Below are positions 50,794 through 58,327 of a DNA stretch of 58,327 nt, in pieces (within the stretch, counting starts at the first letter, position 1; every line of letters begins with the position of its first letter). The translations under genes and the position numbers were made by a program. The notes beneath the pieces are model-generated. The model was not told where the DNA came from. It made no database searches and saw only the letters and a list, made by a program, of their open reading frames with translations. Source of the stretch: an uncultured Nitrospiraceae bacterium (lineage in GTDB: Bacteria > Nitrospirota > Thermodesulfovibrionia > Thermodesulfovibrionales > SM23-35); the NCBI GenBank assembly GCA_937138415.1, contig CAKZPA010000027.1:1-58327 (forward strand), written 5' to 3'.

Positions 50794-51282
50794 TCAACTT
50801 TTCTTGACCCCCTCGCGGGCTATGGCGATCTTCCCGGTTCTCACGAACTCCTTGATCCCGATCGGCTTGAGGAGCTCGATAATCGCCTCTATCTTTTTTT
50901 CGTCCCCGGTTATTTCGATGGTATAGGTCGTCTTGCTCGAATCGACCACTCTCCCCCTGAAAATTTCGGTGAGCCTCAAGACCTCGGCTTTATCCTCCTG
51001 CCGGGGGGCAACTTTAATGAGAACCATTTCCCTCTCGACGTGGTCGAGTTCGGTCATGTCGACGACCTTTATGACGTCGATCAGCTTGTTGAGCTGCTTC
51101 GTGATCTGTTCGATAATCTGGTCGTCACCGCTCGTGACGATCGTCATCGTCGATATTTGAGGATCGATCGTCTCCCCGACGGAGAGGCTCTCGATATTGT
51201 ATCCCCTTCCACTGAACAGACCCGCGATTCTCGAAAGTACGCCGAATTTGTTCTCGACGAGCAACGAAATGGTGTGTCTCAT
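50794..51282 (-). CDS. ilvN: Acetolactate synthase small (regulatory) subunit
   Basis: 162 residues. N-terminal ACT domain [40 protein letters not shown], then the C-terminal domain ([30 protein letters not shown]). It confers valine feedback on IlvB. It lies 55 nt downstream of ilvB on the minus strand. Confidence 0.95.
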
Positions 51283-51337: not shown

Positions 51338-53068
51338 CTACTTCACGGCTTTAAGCTTCTTCTCTTCCTTCTCCGGCTTTTCTTCGAAGAGCATGTGGTC
51401 GATCGGCGCGCCAGCGGGCACCATGGGAAAGACCTTCTCCTTCCAGTGGACGACAAAGTCCATGAAGACCGTCTTCTTGATTTTGAACGCCTCCTTCAGA
51501 ACCGACTCCACTTCGCTCGGCTTCGTCGCTCTCAACCCGACAGCGCCGTACGCTTCGGCGAGTTTGACGAAATCGGGAACGACCTCGAGGTGCGTGTGAG
51601 AGTACCGCCCTGCGAAGAAGAGTTCCTGCCATTGTCTCACCATGCCGAGATATCGGTTGTTGAGAATCGCCACCTTCACCGGAAGTTTATTGATAACCGC
51701 GGTCGCGAGTTCCTGAATGTTCATCTGAATACTGCCGTCGCCCGCGATATCAATGACGAGCTTGTTCGGGTGCGCTATTTGAGCGCCAATGGCCGCCGGG
51801 AATCCGTATCCCATCGTCCCCAGTCCGCCCGACGTCAACCACATCCTCGGCCGGTCGAACTTGAAGAACTGCGCCGCCCACATTTGGTTCTGGCCGACCT
51901 CGGTCGAGATGATGGCGTCCCCCTTCGTCAGCTCGAATATCTTTTCGACGACGAACTGCGGCTTTATCACGTCGTCGCTGTACGTGTAGGTCATCGGCCT
52001 TTCCTGTCGCCACAGGTCGATCTGCCTCAGCCACGCTTTGCGCACCTCGTCCCACTGTTCCTTCATATCCTCTCTCAGCATCTTATTCAGCACCGTAAGA
52101 ACCCGCTTGACATCACCGACGATCGGGATATCGACGCGCACATTTTTTCTGATCGACGTCGGATCGATATCGATATGGATGATCTTCGCGTGAGGAGCGA
52201 ACGCGTCAATCTTCCCCGTTACCCTGTCATCAAACCGCATCCCTATGGCGATGAGGAGGTCCGATTCCTGGATGGACTTGTTCGCGTAGTACGTCCCGTG
52301 CATACCCGGCATCCCGAGCGAGAGCGGGTGCGTTCCCGGAAACCCCCCGAGCCCCATCAGCGTCATCGTCACGGGGATGTTCGTCACTTCCGCGAGTTCC
52401 TTCAGTTCCTTGTGGGCTCCGGAGATGATGACGCCCCCGCCGGCAATGATAACCGCCCTCTTCGACTTCGCGATGAGGTTCGCGGCCTGTTGGATCATCC
52501 ACCTGTTTCCCTCGTACGTCGGGTTATAGCTTCTGATCTTGACCTCGGGCCACGTAAAATCCGCCTTCGAAGCCGTCACATCCTTCGGGAGATCGATGAG
52601 AACCGGACCCGGGCGACCGGTCGTTGCGATATGGAAGGCCTCTCTGATGATTCTCGAAAGATCTCTCACGTCTTTCGCGAGGTAATTGTATTTCGTACAC
52701 GGTCTAGAAATCCCGACGATATCAGCTTCCTGGAAAGCGTCATTCCCGATGAGCATCGTCGGCACCTGCCCGGAAAAAACGACGAGCGGTATGGAATCCA
52801 TGGATGCGGTGGCAATGCCAGTGATCGTATTGGTCGCGCCGGGACCGGATGTCACGAGCACCACCCCGGGCTTGCCCGTCGATCGGGCATATCCGTCGGC
52901 TGCATGCACAGCACCCTGCTCGTGCCGCGTGAGGATCAACTGGATGTCCTTGTCGTCGTAGAGAAGATCGAATATGTTAAGGATCACCCCCCCGGGATAT
53001 CCGAAAATGTGCTTTACGCCCTCTCTCTTCAGCGTCTCGACTAATATTTCCGCTCCTGTCATCTTCAT
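51338..53068 (-). CDS. ilvB: Acetolactate synthase large subunit
   Basis: 576 residues. ThDP enzyme of valine/isoleucine synthesis. Signatures: [36 protein letters not shown] with the catalytic Glu region, [17 protein letters not shown], and the ThDP site [20 protein letters not shown] with [19 protein letters not shown] 53068 with GGAG 11 nt upstream; an extended -10 (TGGTAAAAT) lies at 53109-53101. Confidence 0.96.
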
Positions 53069-53471: not shown

Positions 53472-54746
53472 CTAATCCCTGTCAAATTTTTCCGCCCACT
53501 GGGGAGACTTCCGCATCACCGGCATTCTGTTGACAATCCACCTGAAAGCCCATATCTGAACGAAGACGACGGCAAGGGTGACTATCCACTCGAGAGCAGA
53601 AGGGAAATATCTTTCCGCAAAAGGGAGATCCCAGTTATATGCCAGAAACACGGAATTGTATCTGTTCATCAGAATGCCTACCATGGCGATAACGGCTGCC
53701 GTCTGAATCGTCAGCATGTTTTTCTTCTGAGCGCCATGAGCGAACATTAACCCGGGGATAGCCACAAAACCTATGATTTCGAGCAACCACCAGTATCCCA
53801 TTTCTGAGTTGACAAAGGCAAAATCACCTTCGAACTGTGCAACGATAAGAGAAAGCGCAAAGAATCCAAACATAACTCCCCCGCATATCTTGGCAAACCC
53901 CATCATGACATCGAAACGGGAATTGCGGTACTCTTCATCAATCTGATATGAGAAAACCTTTTCACTTATGGCATCTACCATGATGAGCAGTGAGATACCG
54001 GCATAGATGCTCGACACAAAGAAAAGCACGGGAAGCATTTCGGAATACCAGAGGGGATGGATCTTCCCCTTCGCCATGGTCAGTAACGCGCCTACCCCTG
54101 TCTGTTGCAGCACCGAAAGGGTGATGCCGAACACGGTCGCACCCAGAGCAACAGTAGCAGCCCTCTTCCGCGAAGTGGTATTTCCGATCCACTCAGCAAA
54201 AGCCGGCCTGAATTGCAGGGCAGCCGTCACGATGGTAAGCAGGAAGACCCATAGCACGATGAACATGACCGAATTTGCACCAAAGCCGTTCCCTATGAAG
54301 ACATTCGGGATATTCCACCAGCGGCCAAATGACAGAACAATAACCACCAGGCAGAAAAATGAGGTCAGCAAATTGTTCAGCACCGCCACCCGTAAAAACG
54401 GGCGATATTTTTTCACGCCAAGCACATTCACGATAAAAGGGACCACAGCCCCACCAGCCGCGAAAGCGACCCCGCACATGATGTAGAACCCTATCCAGAG
54501 CCCCAGGGGTGACAACTGACTCAGGTTGGTGACCGGGGAACCAAGGCCTGCAAACAATCGATACACGATAGCCAAGATGCTGAATGCCACCACGACGCCA
54601 GAAAGAAGATTAAACGCCGTTGCCGGATTCCCTTTCGGCTTCGATTCTTTCCTGAAAAAAGGCCAGAAATCCCTGCCAATCTGTATTTCTGCTGGCTTGT
54701 CCGGTTGCTCGACAACCGCTACAGTCTCTAACTTTTCTCCAGCCAT
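53472..54746 (-). CDS. NrfD/HmcC-type quinol-interacting membrane subunit
   Basis: 424 residues with about ten membrane segments (for example VVAFSILAIVYRLFAGL, FYIMCGVAFAAGGAVVPFIV, NSVMFIVLWVFLLTIVTAAL) and the NrfD/PsrC-family acidic and glycine positions. These subunits pass electrons between menaquinol and a periplasmic Fe-S subunit. It is 21 nt downstream of the ferredoxin gene. Confidence 0.9.
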   Translation of the reverse strand: MAGEKLETVAVVEQPDKPAEIQIGRDFWPFFRKESKPKGNPATAFNLLSGVVVAFSILAIVYRLFAGLGSPVTNLSQLSPLGLWIGFYIMCGVAFAAGGAVVPFIVNVLGVKKYRPFLRVAVLNNLLTSFFCLVVIVLSFGRWWNIPNVFIGNGFGANSVMFIVLWVFLLTIVTAALQFRPAFAEWIGNTTSRKRAATVALGATVFGITLSVLQQTGVGALLTMAKGKIHPLWYSEMLPVLFFVSSIYAGISLLIMVDAISEKVFSYQIDEEYRNSRFDVMMGFAKICGGVMFGFFALSLIVAQFEGDFAFVNSEMGYWWLLEIIGFVAIPGLMFAHGAQKKNMLTIQTAAVIAMVGILMNRYNSVFLAYNWDLPFAERYFPSALEWIVTLAVVFVQIWAFRWIVNRMPVMRKSPQWAEKFDRD

Positions 54747-54767: not shown

Positions 54768-55679
54768 CTAATGTTTGCCAGTTCCTGAATGTTTTTCTTC
54801 AGTCTTCGGTTCACTCTTTTCGATTCCCTTCTTTAACGCAGCATTTACAGCAAGCAGGAAAAGCGGCGTCAGCGTTGCTATGAAGGGCACAGCCCTCAGA
54901 TAACCGGCACTGTATTCCGGGTAAGGTATCGTGCCCAAATCCTTGCGGAAGCCAATTTGATCAAATGGAACTGCAGAGAGGTACAGGTGCGATGCTCCGC
55001 CCACTTCATATTCACCGAATATATGATCAACATACTGCCCGGGATTTGCAGCGATTCTCCGATTACCCTCCTCCAGTACCAGCCTTCTTGTTCCGGCCAT
55101 GAGAGCCTGCGTCGGGCAGACTTCAACGCATGCGGGAAGAACGCCCTGCTTGTATCTATCCCAGCACAGATTGCATTTCTGGATGTTCGATACTGCCCTG
55201 CCGTATTCAAATTTCGGCATATCAAACGGACATGAAACCATGCATAGTCTGCATCCTATGCAGTTCGAGTGCCAGATGACGTGTCCGGCCCGCTTCTTTT
55301 CAAGAGCCTTCACCGGACAGGAAGCAACACATCCCGGCTGGTTGCAGTGCATGCACCTTTGCGGAACGAATATTGTTCCCTTTTCGGTTTCATACCTATT
55401 CGTAACGGTATATTCGGTGACAGTCGTCCTTCGCGGTGATGCAAAAACCTGCTTGTTGGCAGCCTCCGAAATATCAGGTACGGGGAGCCCGTTCACTTCA
55501 GCACAGGCCTGCTCACAGCGGCGGCAGCCTATGCAGCGAGTAGTATCAACGAGAATACCGTAAAATTCCTTCGTCTTTGTACTCTCACCTGCCAAGGATT
55601 GCACCGGCATGAGAAGGCTTCCGGTCGTTGCACCCGCAACCCCGGTCCCGATAATTTTTAGAAAAGTCCTTCTGTCCAT
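54768..55679 (-). CDS. HmcB/DsrO-type periplasmic ferredoxin
   Basis: 303 residues. Tat signal MDRRTFLKIIGTGVAG with twin Arg and a cleavage site after SLAG; then four Fe-S binding clusters: CIGCRRCEQAC, CMHCNQPGCVASCP, CIGCRLCMVSCP and CNLCWDRYKQ...CVEVCP. A C-terminal membrane helix (PFIATLTPLFLLAVNAALKK) anchors it. It should link the cytochrome to the NrfD subunit. Starts 12 nt after the cytochrome gene. Confidence 0.92.
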   Translation of the reverse strand: MDRRTFLKIIGTGVAGATTGSLLMPVQSLAGESTKTKEFYGILVDTTRCIGCRRCEQACAEVNGLPVPDISEAANKQVFASPRRTTVTEYTVTNRYETEKGTIFVPQRCMHCNQPGCVASCPVKALEKKRAGHVIWHSNCIGCRLCMVSCPFDMPKFEYGRAVSNIQKCNLCWDRYKQGVLPACVEVCPTQALMAGTRRLVLEEGNRRIAANPGQYVDHIFGEYEVGGASHLYLSAVPFDQIGFRKDLGTIPYPEYSAGYLRAVPFIATLTPLFLLAVNAALKKGIEKSEPKTEEKHSGTGKH

Positions 55680-55691
55680 CCTCGCTCCTCT

Positions 55692-57485
55692 CTATTCATT
55701 CTCAAGCACTGATTTACTATATGGTCTCCACGCATTGAGATTTCTCGCGGTATTCTGTTTCACCACTGTTGCATTCTTCAACGAGGTAATATCCGCAGGC
55801 CCCCCGGCTTTTCTCTGATGACAAGCCGCACACCTGTCTCCTTCTTTATCAGTTGCACCGCCGCCTTTCGCGATGCCCATCCTGTCATGGCATCCCAGAC
55901 ACTGGTTATGGTATGCGGAAAGAAGTCTGACGTCGTTTAAATTCTTTTCGTCATAGTCAATCATGTGGCAATTTCTGCAGTTCGGCGGAAGGCCTCTTTG
56001 GGCCTCAGCCGCTCCCGCGCTGTAATGATGGCATCCTGCACAGAGTGTCTGGACATCCCTGTGGAAATAGGTTGCGAGCCTGCTCTCATTCGAGATTCTT
56101 GTTAACGCTCTGAGAATATCAGCATGGGGGAACACAGCAGAATCATATTCCTTTTCCAGAACATTAATCGAGATATTGCCGACCACGCCTGGAACAGCAA
56201 AGGCCTGTGGCATACCTTCTGCATCTCTCCTGCCCGAATGGCAACGTGCGCATGTTTCCTTCTTCGGATTCATCGTCTCAACATCGACATCGGCGATATT
56301 GTAATGGCACCCCGCGCATTCCTTTTGCGCCTTCATTTGATTGTGGCAACCTGAACAGCTGTATGGGGAAAATGCGCTGTGATACGCCTTGGCTATGCTC
56401 ACGTTATTCCCCTCCGGCTTGCCCGTCAGGCTGTGGCAGTCCTTACATGCTTTCAGCCTTTCATGGTGGCATGACGAACAGGATTTTGCGTAGGACTGAT
56501 GCGCCCGGTGGTTAAATGCCACGCCGTGCATCCGTGCATTCTCGATCGTTATATATGCCACATCCTTCTGGCCACGGTACGGCCTTGGTACGTTCCGAAG
56601 GTCATCGGCAGTTCTGTATTCGCCGGTATGACACTTCGAACAGTCAGTTGGGATATGGCAGCTTGTGCAGCTGACGACACTCTTGGTATTCGGCAGGTGG
56701 CATGCACCACACCGCACCTTGTCTTTATGAAGATTATGGGCTGTATCCTTGTTCGACATCTTCTGGTATTCATCCCGAAGTTCCAAGTGACAGCCGAGGC
56801 ACTGCTGATGAGAAACTTTCCGGGTCGACAGTCCCTTCCCTGCAGCCACGCTTGTGACGGCTGCCAGTTCTGGGCCCCTCTTCTTATTGAGGTCGTGACA
56901 GTAGGCACAGGGATCCTCCGTTCCTGCCTTCCGAACGAGTTTCTGCTCTTTGGTATCGTATGTGTGGTGGCACTGACCGCAATCACCCCTCCCGAACCTG
57001 TCTCTCATAACCCTCACATGCGTATTGTGGTCAGCAGCATCAAACTCGGCAGCCGGATACGATATCTTCACATCTGCCAATTCCTTTTTATGGCAATTGT
57101 TGCAGGTGAGCGGCCCTGCCTTCATTTTCTTATGACATCCGATGCACGCATCATGAAAAGCGTTCATCGCAGCTTTATAGCCTTGCCCGTCAATCCTCTT
57201 CGGGAAGGTAAATATAATCTTATTCATGTCATTGACCGGATGGCATGCTGCACAGCCCTCATTCTCAAGCGCTTTTTCGTGCAGTTTGTGGTCAAAAATC
57301 ACATGGGGGCGCTGAAGCTTTCCGAATAGTTCAGTGTGAGCAATGCTAATCTTCCCGTCAGCATCAGCGGCAGTCAGCTGGGCTGCAGGCCCCGGTGTGC
57401 CTGCAGAAAACACAAGGGTGAGACCGATGGCTATCAAAATGAGATAGATGACACTTATCACCAACAATAATATTTTTTTGCGCAT
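55692..57485 (-). CDS. 18-heme membrane-anchored c-type cytochrome (HmcA-like)
   Basis: 597 residues from ATG 57485 (GAGGAAGGG upstream). An N-terminal helix (ILLLVISVIYLILIAIGLTL) acts as signal or anchor; the periplasmic part contains 18 CxxCH heme-c motifs (counted in order: CAACH, CIGCH, CNNCH, CGQCH, CAYCH, CLGCH, CGACH, CTSCH, CSKCH, CSSCH, CKDCH, CSGCH, CAGCH, CARCH, CAGCH, CRNCH, CLGCH, CAACH). HmcA has 16. A longer upstream frame overlaps the HdrB-like gene and is not supported. It belongs to the Hmc-like operon, between the HdrB-like and ferredoxin genes. Confidence 0.92.
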   Translation of the reverse strand: MRKKILLLVISVIYLILIAIGLTLVFSAGTPGPAAQLTAADADGKISIAHTELFGKLQRPHVIFDHKLHEKALENEGCAACHPVNDMNKIIFTFPKRIDGQGYKAAMNAFHDACIGCHKKMKAGPLTCNNCHKKELADVKISYPAAEFDAADHNTHVRVMRDRFGRGDCGQCHHTYDTKEQKLVRKAGTEDPCAYCHDLNKKRGPELAAVTSVAAGKGLSTRKVSHQQCLGCHLELRDEYQKMSNKDTAHNLHKDKVRCGACHLPNTKSVVSCTSCHIPTDCSKCHTGEYRTADDLRNVPRPYRGQKDVAYITIENARMHGVAFNHRAHQSYAKSCSSCHHERLKACKDCHSLTGKPEGNNVSIAKAYHSAFSPYSCSGCHNQMKAQKECAGCHYNIADVDVETMNPKKETCARCHSGRRDAEGMPQAFAVPGVVGNISINVLEKEYDSAVFPHADILRALTRISNESRLATYFHRDVQTLCAGCHHYSAGAAEAQRGLPPNCRNCHMIDYDEKNLNDVRLLSAYHNQCLGCHDRMGIAKGGGATDKEGDRCAACHQRKAGGPADITSLKNATVVKQNTARNLNAWRPYSKSVLENE

Positions 57486-57502: not shown

Positions 57503-58327
57503 TTATTTCTTCAGTTTCAGGTGTTCGGGCATCTCCATCGTCGCCACCAGTATCTCGTCGAAAAAGATGTTCTTCACCGGCAGATTCCAGTACTTGATCA
57601 CGTCCTTTATCCCCGTGCTGCAGTTGTGGCACGGCGTGATCACGTACTTCGCACCCGTCGCCATAATCTGCTCGGCCTTCACCCTGTTGAACTTCGCCTT
57701 ATGCGCCGCCCAGTTCGATAACGACGCCAACCCGCCTCCCGCGTTACAGCAGAAATTGTGCTCCCGGTTCGGCGTCATCTCCCGAAAGTCCTCGCACGTC
57801 TCGTTCACAAAATACCGAAACTTCTCCGCTGCTCCCCCCCTCCGAATAATATTGCACGGGTCCTGCAGCGTAACCGGTTCCTTGATCTTCCTCGCGATCT
57901 TGATCTTCCCCGTCTTCAGAAGATCAACGTAAAACTCTCCCGTCTGCATCACCTCAAACGGCAATGTCTTCATTCCTAACATCGGCGGTGCCACAGACCT
58001 TGTGGCAAATCGAGGGTGCCCTCACTCAGTGAGCACCATCGTCTTCACCCGCAATCGGGCCGCGTTGTCGTACATCCCCCGCACAATCCGGTTCATCGTC
58101 GTGAAATCCCGCAGGAACATCGGCATGTTGCTCGCGTCCCACGTGTCCCTCCCCGCCACCGTCCAGTCGATCCCCGCCGCATGCATGATCTTCGCCGTCC
58201 GCTCGATATGATACGTGTTCGTCTTCGGCTCTCCCCCCAGAGGGTACCAGATCACCTCCGCCCCCTCTTTATCAATCGGTATCCGTAAGTTCTCAAACTC
58301 CGCCCCAACCTCCTCCTCCTGCCACTG
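57503..58327 (-). CDS. HdrB/DsrK/HmcF-like subunit with in-frame TGA (probable selenoprotein), partial
   Basis: 274 visible residues, open to the right edge. C-terminal CCG (HdrB/DsrK-type) domain: GHPRFATRSVAPPM, LQDPCN, FCCNAGGG, TPCHNCS. A TGA (58024-58022) interrupts MVLTE-TGA-GHP in frame; from memory relatives read ECGHA here, so the TGA replaces a conserved cluster Cys. A SECIS-like hairpin follows (57989-58007). If Sec is inserted, the protein is intact on both sides. It is the first visible gene of the Hmc-like operon. Cytoplasmic; exchanges electrons with thiol/disulfide or sulfur carriers. Composition is clearly more C-rich than the cytochrome gene. Confidence 0.85.
57989..58007 (-). 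promoter_or_regulatory. Candidate bacterial SECIS element
   Basis: On the minus strand UGCCACA (58007-58001), loop AGGUC (58000-57996), UGUGGCA (57995-57989): a perfect 7-bp stem. The loop begins 21 nt after the TGA, within the 16-37-nt range for bacterial SECIS, and has G in its second position. AGGUCUG also occurs at the apex of the E. coli fdhF SECIS (from memory). Confidence 0.75.

Follow-up and report, generated by a model that had tools for sequence, protein, structure and literature searches.

Does the TGA at 58024-58022 on the minus strand end a gene, or does it specify an amino acid within an intact electron-transfer subunit, and what would that residue do there? The window, the whole stretch of 58,327 nucleotides analysed here, is contig C27 of the 2.11-Mb genome (57 contigs) of an uncultured Nitrospiraceae bacterium. 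This single TGA breaks an otherwise open 274-codon frame that reaches the contig end. With the TGA read as U, the frame from 58327 to 57503 yields 274 residues followed by a TAA, with no frameshift, and the TGA codon occupies the Cys position of an E-C-G-H motif. On the minus strand the surrounding codons are ATG GTG CTC ACT GAG TGA GGG CAC CCT CGA TTT GCC ACA AGG TCT GTG GCA CCG, within the sequence ...GTGCTCACTGAG TGA GGGCACCCTCGATT TGCCACA AGGTC TGTGGCA.... The initial annotation had located the TGA at these positions in a frame open on both sides, and was exact on both points. The frame (57503..58327, minus strand) forms the C-terminal 274 codons of a TmcB/HmcF-like CCG-domain iron-sulfur subunit, with a Pfam CCG domain at residues 152-240. 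The same 77-mer ends both C27 and C36, and another 77 bases are common to C30 and C47, a pattern that a k=77 assembly graph would leave where it breaks at repeated genes; the N-terminus (~180 residues) therefore lies beyond the contig end. The assembly breaks at shared 77-mers within several TmcB-like paralogues (C15, C27, C30, C36 and C47), which seem to comprise a complete Cys copy on C47 and two to three close copies. The middle part of the close TmcB-like copies is absent from the bin.

The TGA codon (58022..58024, minus strand) encodes residue 102 of the fragment, which corresponds to residue 281 in L066, a full-length relative. Among 84 motif-bearing homologues found in a scan of named GTDB genomes, this column holds U in 11 and C in 73, and nothing else. 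Within the window's own family, a set drawn from 60 relatives and the window's genome, 14 of 20 genomes contain the Sec form, and four genomes of a related family (f10) have Cys at the column; some of the GTDB loci come from the same assemblies as family relatives (for example L066 and G007), and these counts overlap and are not independent. Among named genomes, Sec is carried by Thermodesulfovibrionales/Nitrospirae MAGs and by two species of Thermodesulfobacterium; to judge from these nearest named relatives, the window would belong to Thermodesulfovibrionales. One named strain, Thermodesulfobacterium hydrogeniphilum DSM 14290, has a Sec form (L069) with 68% identity and the motif TEUGHPR. 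When the U/C label was placed on a tree of 79 rows we counted nine changes, at least seven of them forced by well-supported branches, on a tree with long branches and midpoint rooting that gives no direction of U/C change except for the copy on C36. This C36 Cys copy is nested among Sec forms on a long branch, and has probably either lost Sec to Cys or begun to decay; on the tree it looks like a Sec-to-Cys loss. It carries a C-terminal frameshift that removes ~25 residues (L044:7570-8319, minus strand). A TGA in this copy was considered as a second Sec form and rejected; it is the stop that follows the frameshift, and the motif codon is TGC. Likewise, a TAG in the homologue G014b was considered as pyrrolysine or recoded Sec and rejected as an ordinary stop, 172 residues after the Cys.

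Downstream of the TGA lies a SECIS-type hairpin, TGCCACA-AGGTC-TGTGGCA (57989..58007, minus strand), with seven perfect pairs and an AGGUC loop that starts 21 nt after the UGA. Of the 1,991 TGA triplets on the window's two strands, only 10 (0.5%) precede a comparable hairpin. Such a hairpin is also seen in 15 of 16 further Sec-type sequences, with stems of 5-8 bp, loops starting 15-23 nt past the UGA and a G within the first two loop positions; the remaining one, L049, has only three unbroken pairs at the usual geometry. Stems of seven or more pairs occur in only 2 of 73 Cys types. When 16 rows were aligned, 87.5% of stem cells were paired, as compared to 15-55% with the partner slid, and two stem pairs were changed on both sides; the shuffle statistics are modest (2/500 for cells paired and 15/500 for covariation). 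On C36 the Cys paralogue has retained the motif as ECGHS, and of its hairpin the broken remnant TTTCCACAACGTATGCTACAC is left.

The genome encodes the complete selenocysteine machinery. A tRNA-Sec with anticodon tca is located at C35:24649-24742, SelB at C2:1469-3319 (343 bits, cut-off 242), SelA at C2:6018-7370 (618.7 bits, cut-off 268) and SelD at C57:4538-5464 (L177; 380.9 bits, cut-off 125). SelD is itself a predicted selenoprotein: its frame contains one in-frame TGA (KVRAAG-U-ASK) followed by the strong hairpin AAGTCC-GGG-GGACTT. Thus all four genes that the initial annotation had proposed to look for (selA, selB, selC and selD) were found, the column that it had suggested aligning holds C or U only, and the SECIS-type hairpin that it described, with a 7-bp stem at 21 nt, is confirmed and recurs in the Sec forms. 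Its Sec interpretation is supported by the machinery, the U/C column and the hairpin; selB and selC are both present, and none of the 84 homologues has anything but Cys or Sec at the position. On this sequence evidence the gene almost certainly encodes a selenoprotein, with the UGA at 58024-58022 as its Sec codon. SelA, SelB, SelC and SelD, together with the hairpin just downstream, would decode this UGA as selenocysteine.

The protein belongs among the TmcB-like CCG subunits. Against NCBIfam models the window fragment scored 291.6 bits for TmcB, 220.8 for HmcF and 121.0 for DsrK. A full-length relative (L056/L066) scored below both curated cut-offs (TmcB 527.1, cut-off 735; HmcF 350.1, cut-off 750), and a double-Sec relative also fell short of the TmcB cut-off of 735, with 670.6. 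Because these scores lie under the curated cut-offs, we call the protein TmcB-like and not a TmcB equivalog. Downstream on the minus strand are genes for an hmcA-like multihaem periplasmic cytochrome c (55692..57485; NCBIfam HmcA 418.6 bits, above the cut-off of 400), an hmcB-like iron-sulfur protein whose N-terminus is of the twin-arginine type (54768..55679; HmcB 302.5 bits, under the cut-off of 420) and an hmcC-like membrane protein of the NrfD family (53472..54746; HmcC 313.6 bits, under the cut-off of 550; Pfam NrfD). The description of the gene as an Hmc subunit in the initial annotation thus holds for its hmcA, hmcB and hmcC neighbours, whereas the closest model is TmcB.

In relatives, genes of ~418 and ~224 amino acids (tmcD and tmcC) lie directly upstream. 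In the window's own genome, contig C15 carries tmcD (497 bits, cut-off 440) and tmcC (252.4, cut-off 240) and stops just inside the start of a TmcB-like gene, and an assembly break separates it from the window copy. Because hmcA, hmcB and hmcC follow the gene, and tmcD and tmcC precede its counterparts in relatives and a TmcB-like gene on C15, the locus is most likely a Tmc-Hmc hybrid, with the predicted order tmcD-tmcC-tmcB-like and then hmcA-hmcB-hmcC. It is very likely that the protein is the TmcB-type subunit of a Tmc-Hmc complex. One relative, G014 (L047:6063-11140, minus strand), has a tandem tmcD-tmcC-tmcB(Sec) beside tmcD-tmcC-tmcB(Cys)-hmcA-hmcB-hmcC, so that a single locus holds both a Sec and a Cys isoform. 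Acetolactate synthase-like genes for the large (51338-53068) and small (50794-51282) subunits adjoin the hmc genes on the minus strand of the window; relatives L072 and L091 likewise have a large-subunit gene of this kind after the locus.

Full-length relatives have two CxxCxxCxxxC motifs, a single Cys/Sec at 281 and the CCG2 set C337, C372-C373, C412 and C415; after the two ferredoxin motifs, the only invariant cysteines are C281 and the CCG2 set. In the window the CCG2 set comprises the Cys of DPCN (57854..57856, minus strand; the first conserved CCG2 Cys, invariant C337 of L066), the CC pair of HNFCCNAGGG (57746..57751, minus strand; invariant C372 and C373) and the CxxC of CHNC (57620..57631, minus strand; C412 and C415). 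The CCG2 Cys set is complete and the CCG1 half keeps one Cys/Sec, an arrangement that departs from the two-cluster pattern of HdrB. An AlphaFold2 model (mean pLDDT 92, pTM 0.90) matches EtfD with a Z of 25.4 (3.1 Å over 386 residues) and HdrB with a Z of 17-18 (~2.9 Å over ~236 residues, 202-446). Profile alignment places E-C-G-H on T-C-P-H-C of EtfD (9ojn), so that the Cys/Sec matches the leading Cys of the CCG1 CxxC.

The CCG1 position serves HdrB as a cluster ligand. The initial annotation had taken the Cys column for a cluster ligand and proposed that Sec directly ligates a noncubane-type iron-sulfur cluster. The profile alignment bears out the equivalence with the first CCG1 CxxC Cys (TCPHC), a ligand position in HdrB, but the CCG1 half has no other conserved Cys in the window's TmcB-like family. 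Since these other CCG1 cysteines are missing, the usual ligands cannot build a full CCG1 cluster, and we regard direct ligation by this Sec as unlikely. There is about an even chance that it instead acts as a substrate-side selenol; it may alternatively serve as a lone extra ligand to the CCG2 cluster. As a selenol, the Sec would face the CCG2 cluster and a partner disulfide.

Selenium may nonetheless be tolerated as a ligand elsewhere in the family. A TmcB-like gene of genome G002 (G002c; L050:4818-6131, plus strand) has two in-frame UGAs with a hairpin after each. The first is in the ECGH column; the second takes the place of the leading Cys in the CCG2 CxxC (ISP-U-HNC as compared to ITP-C-HNC in the neighbour G018), which is likely a direct ligand, and has an 8-pair hairpin with a GAA loop after it. 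This gene is a putative double-Sec cluster protein, read from a single genome in which an assembly or base error is possible; if the second Sec is real, it places selenium on a likely direct cluster ligand. A broader reading, that in the Nitrospirota family and the two Thermodesulfobacterium species the hybrid Tmc-Hmc complexes have, in their catalytic subunit on the cytoplasmic side, an active-site Sec that faces the CCG2 noncubane-type cluster and has been repeatedly gained and lost, with the second Sec of G002c ligating the cluster, is rather doubtful.

Taken as a whole, the locus would encode a Sec-bearing TmcB/HmcF-like cytoplasmic subunit of a hybrid complex in a Thermodesulfovibrionales sulfate reducer, an explanation to which we assign a probability of roughly 0.87. 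The periplasmic multihaem cytochrome (HmcA) would exchange electrons with periplasmic cytochromes, and HmcB/HmcC and TmcC would move electrons across the membrane. Two [4Fe-4S] clusters in the N-terminal half would hand electrons to the CCG2 cluster. Beside it, Sec at the first CCG1 CxxC position would provide a redox selenol that would accelerate the two-electron, reversible reduction of a partner with a disulfide. The genome encodes a DsrC with two C-terminal cysteines (...KQACRYAGLPKPTGCV) and has dsrA pieces at contig ends, and DsrC is for that reason a reasonable candidate; we rate its chance of being the partner at somewhat below even. In Desulfovibrio, a proposed role of Tmc is to supply the sulfite pathway, perhaps DsrC, with electrons, and Hmc may run the opposite way, with the cytoplasmic redox partner of both complexes stated as unknown (PMC4215793).

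The assignment of the codon to Sec also has to be weighed against two other ways of reading it. The genome has a second tRNA-Sec-like tRNA, with anticodon GCA and a U discriminator (G000:C36:119378-119479, minus strand; L002:1501-1602), which is missed by ARAGORN, scores above the Rfam tRNA-Sec cut-off and has similar counterparts in many relatives. It matches the published selC* tRNA-Cys class (PMC7609411). This tRNA adjoins the C36 Cys paralogue. That the two are functionally linked was considered and rejected: elsewhere in the family, similar tRNAs and the TmcB-like gene are carried by different contigs (in G018, for example, C15 against C23), and the adjacency on C36 looks incidental. Such a tRNA could let the cell read the UGA as cysteine, at least when selenium is scarce, and the U at the discriminator position is as in the selC* class (PMC7609411); yet the GCA anticodon reads UGC/UGU and not UGA, and with a standard tRNA-Sec with anticodon UCA also in the genome we judge decoding as cysteine to be very improbable. 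Least credible of all, to the point of being negligible, is that the UGA, as a normal stop codon, really ends translation, or arose by nonsense mutation or base error, so that the gene is broken, or is split in two and re-initiates at a GTG (57994, 28 bases after the TGA), where a 163-aa ORF begins: the TGA stands at the same Cys column in 14 family genomes and the two Thermodesulfobacterium species with the frame open on both sides, nearly all TGA forms have the hairpin, the Sec machinery is complete, and the base error named in the initial annotation as a possible refutation is effectively excluded because the TGA is conserved in relatives.

The selenocysteine reading matters in several ways. 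The repeated natural Cys/Sec swap at one invariant residue points to a likely reactive site, and the Sec and Cys forms could be compared for partner, rate and reversibility. 77Se would allow an HdrB-like cluster site to be probed by spectroscopy. In Nitrospirota genomes, standard gene calling would tend to cut this subunit in two at the UGA, and the complex would then be listed as incomplete.

How the protein compares with known systems bears on its novelty, of which the initial annotation was unsure. Five Sec-containing 'Fe-S oxidoreductase (GlpC)' proteins were listed by Zhang et al. 2006 (PMC1794560), and reviews published since then assign the family to COG0247 or PTHR43551, with UGH as its motif (PMC9312934, PMC13188914); the UGH example in PMC13188914 is WP_174406253.1. 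The use of Sec in this motif is thus already published, whereas the window protein apparently belongs to another subfamily and complex. The GlpC type is a homologous CCG protein with U-G-H at the same column. Among our homologues, six from Desulfobacterota (L163, L166, L167, L170, L172 and L173) have NTEUGH aligned with residue 102, and we infer that these represent the published GlpC UGH family. The NTEUGH homologues are ~33-35% identical and form a fully supported clade separate from the window type, and the published GlpC operon (glpC-hdrA-frhD-frhG-frhA) differs from the hmcA-B-C neighbours in the window.

TmcB (NF045724) of the Tmc complex is the best-scoring family, and tmcD and tmcC precede the gene in relatives. 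The window type differs in its score under the equivalog cut-off, in having HmcA downstream instead of the tetrahaem TmcA and in Sec for Cys. HmcF (NF045711) and DsrK (NF045796) are related CCG subunits that scored lower than TmcB; the window protein has Sec instead of their Cys and has HmcA and HmcB-like and HmcC-like proteins as neighbours. Desulfobacterium autotrophicum (D. autotrophicum) has the selenoproteins HdrD4 and HdrF2 (PMC2702500). These likewise carry Sec in HdrD/HdrF-type CCG proteins of a sulfate reducer, but are not described within a cytochrome-linked Hmc/Tmc complex, and residues could be compared only through a relative's homologue, L173. Methanogen HdrB (Z 17-18) and mycobacterial EtfD (Z 25.4) share the fold. 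HdrB has two complete CCG motifs, whereas the window family keeps only CCG2 complete. In the literature searched, which leaves most subscription papers outside and makes for weak evidence, we found neither HmcF with selenocysteine nor TmcB with selenocysteine. As far as we have seen, what is new is the setting of the Sec: its position was known, and here it occurs in a different subfamily and complex, in a Tmc/Hmc-type subunit.
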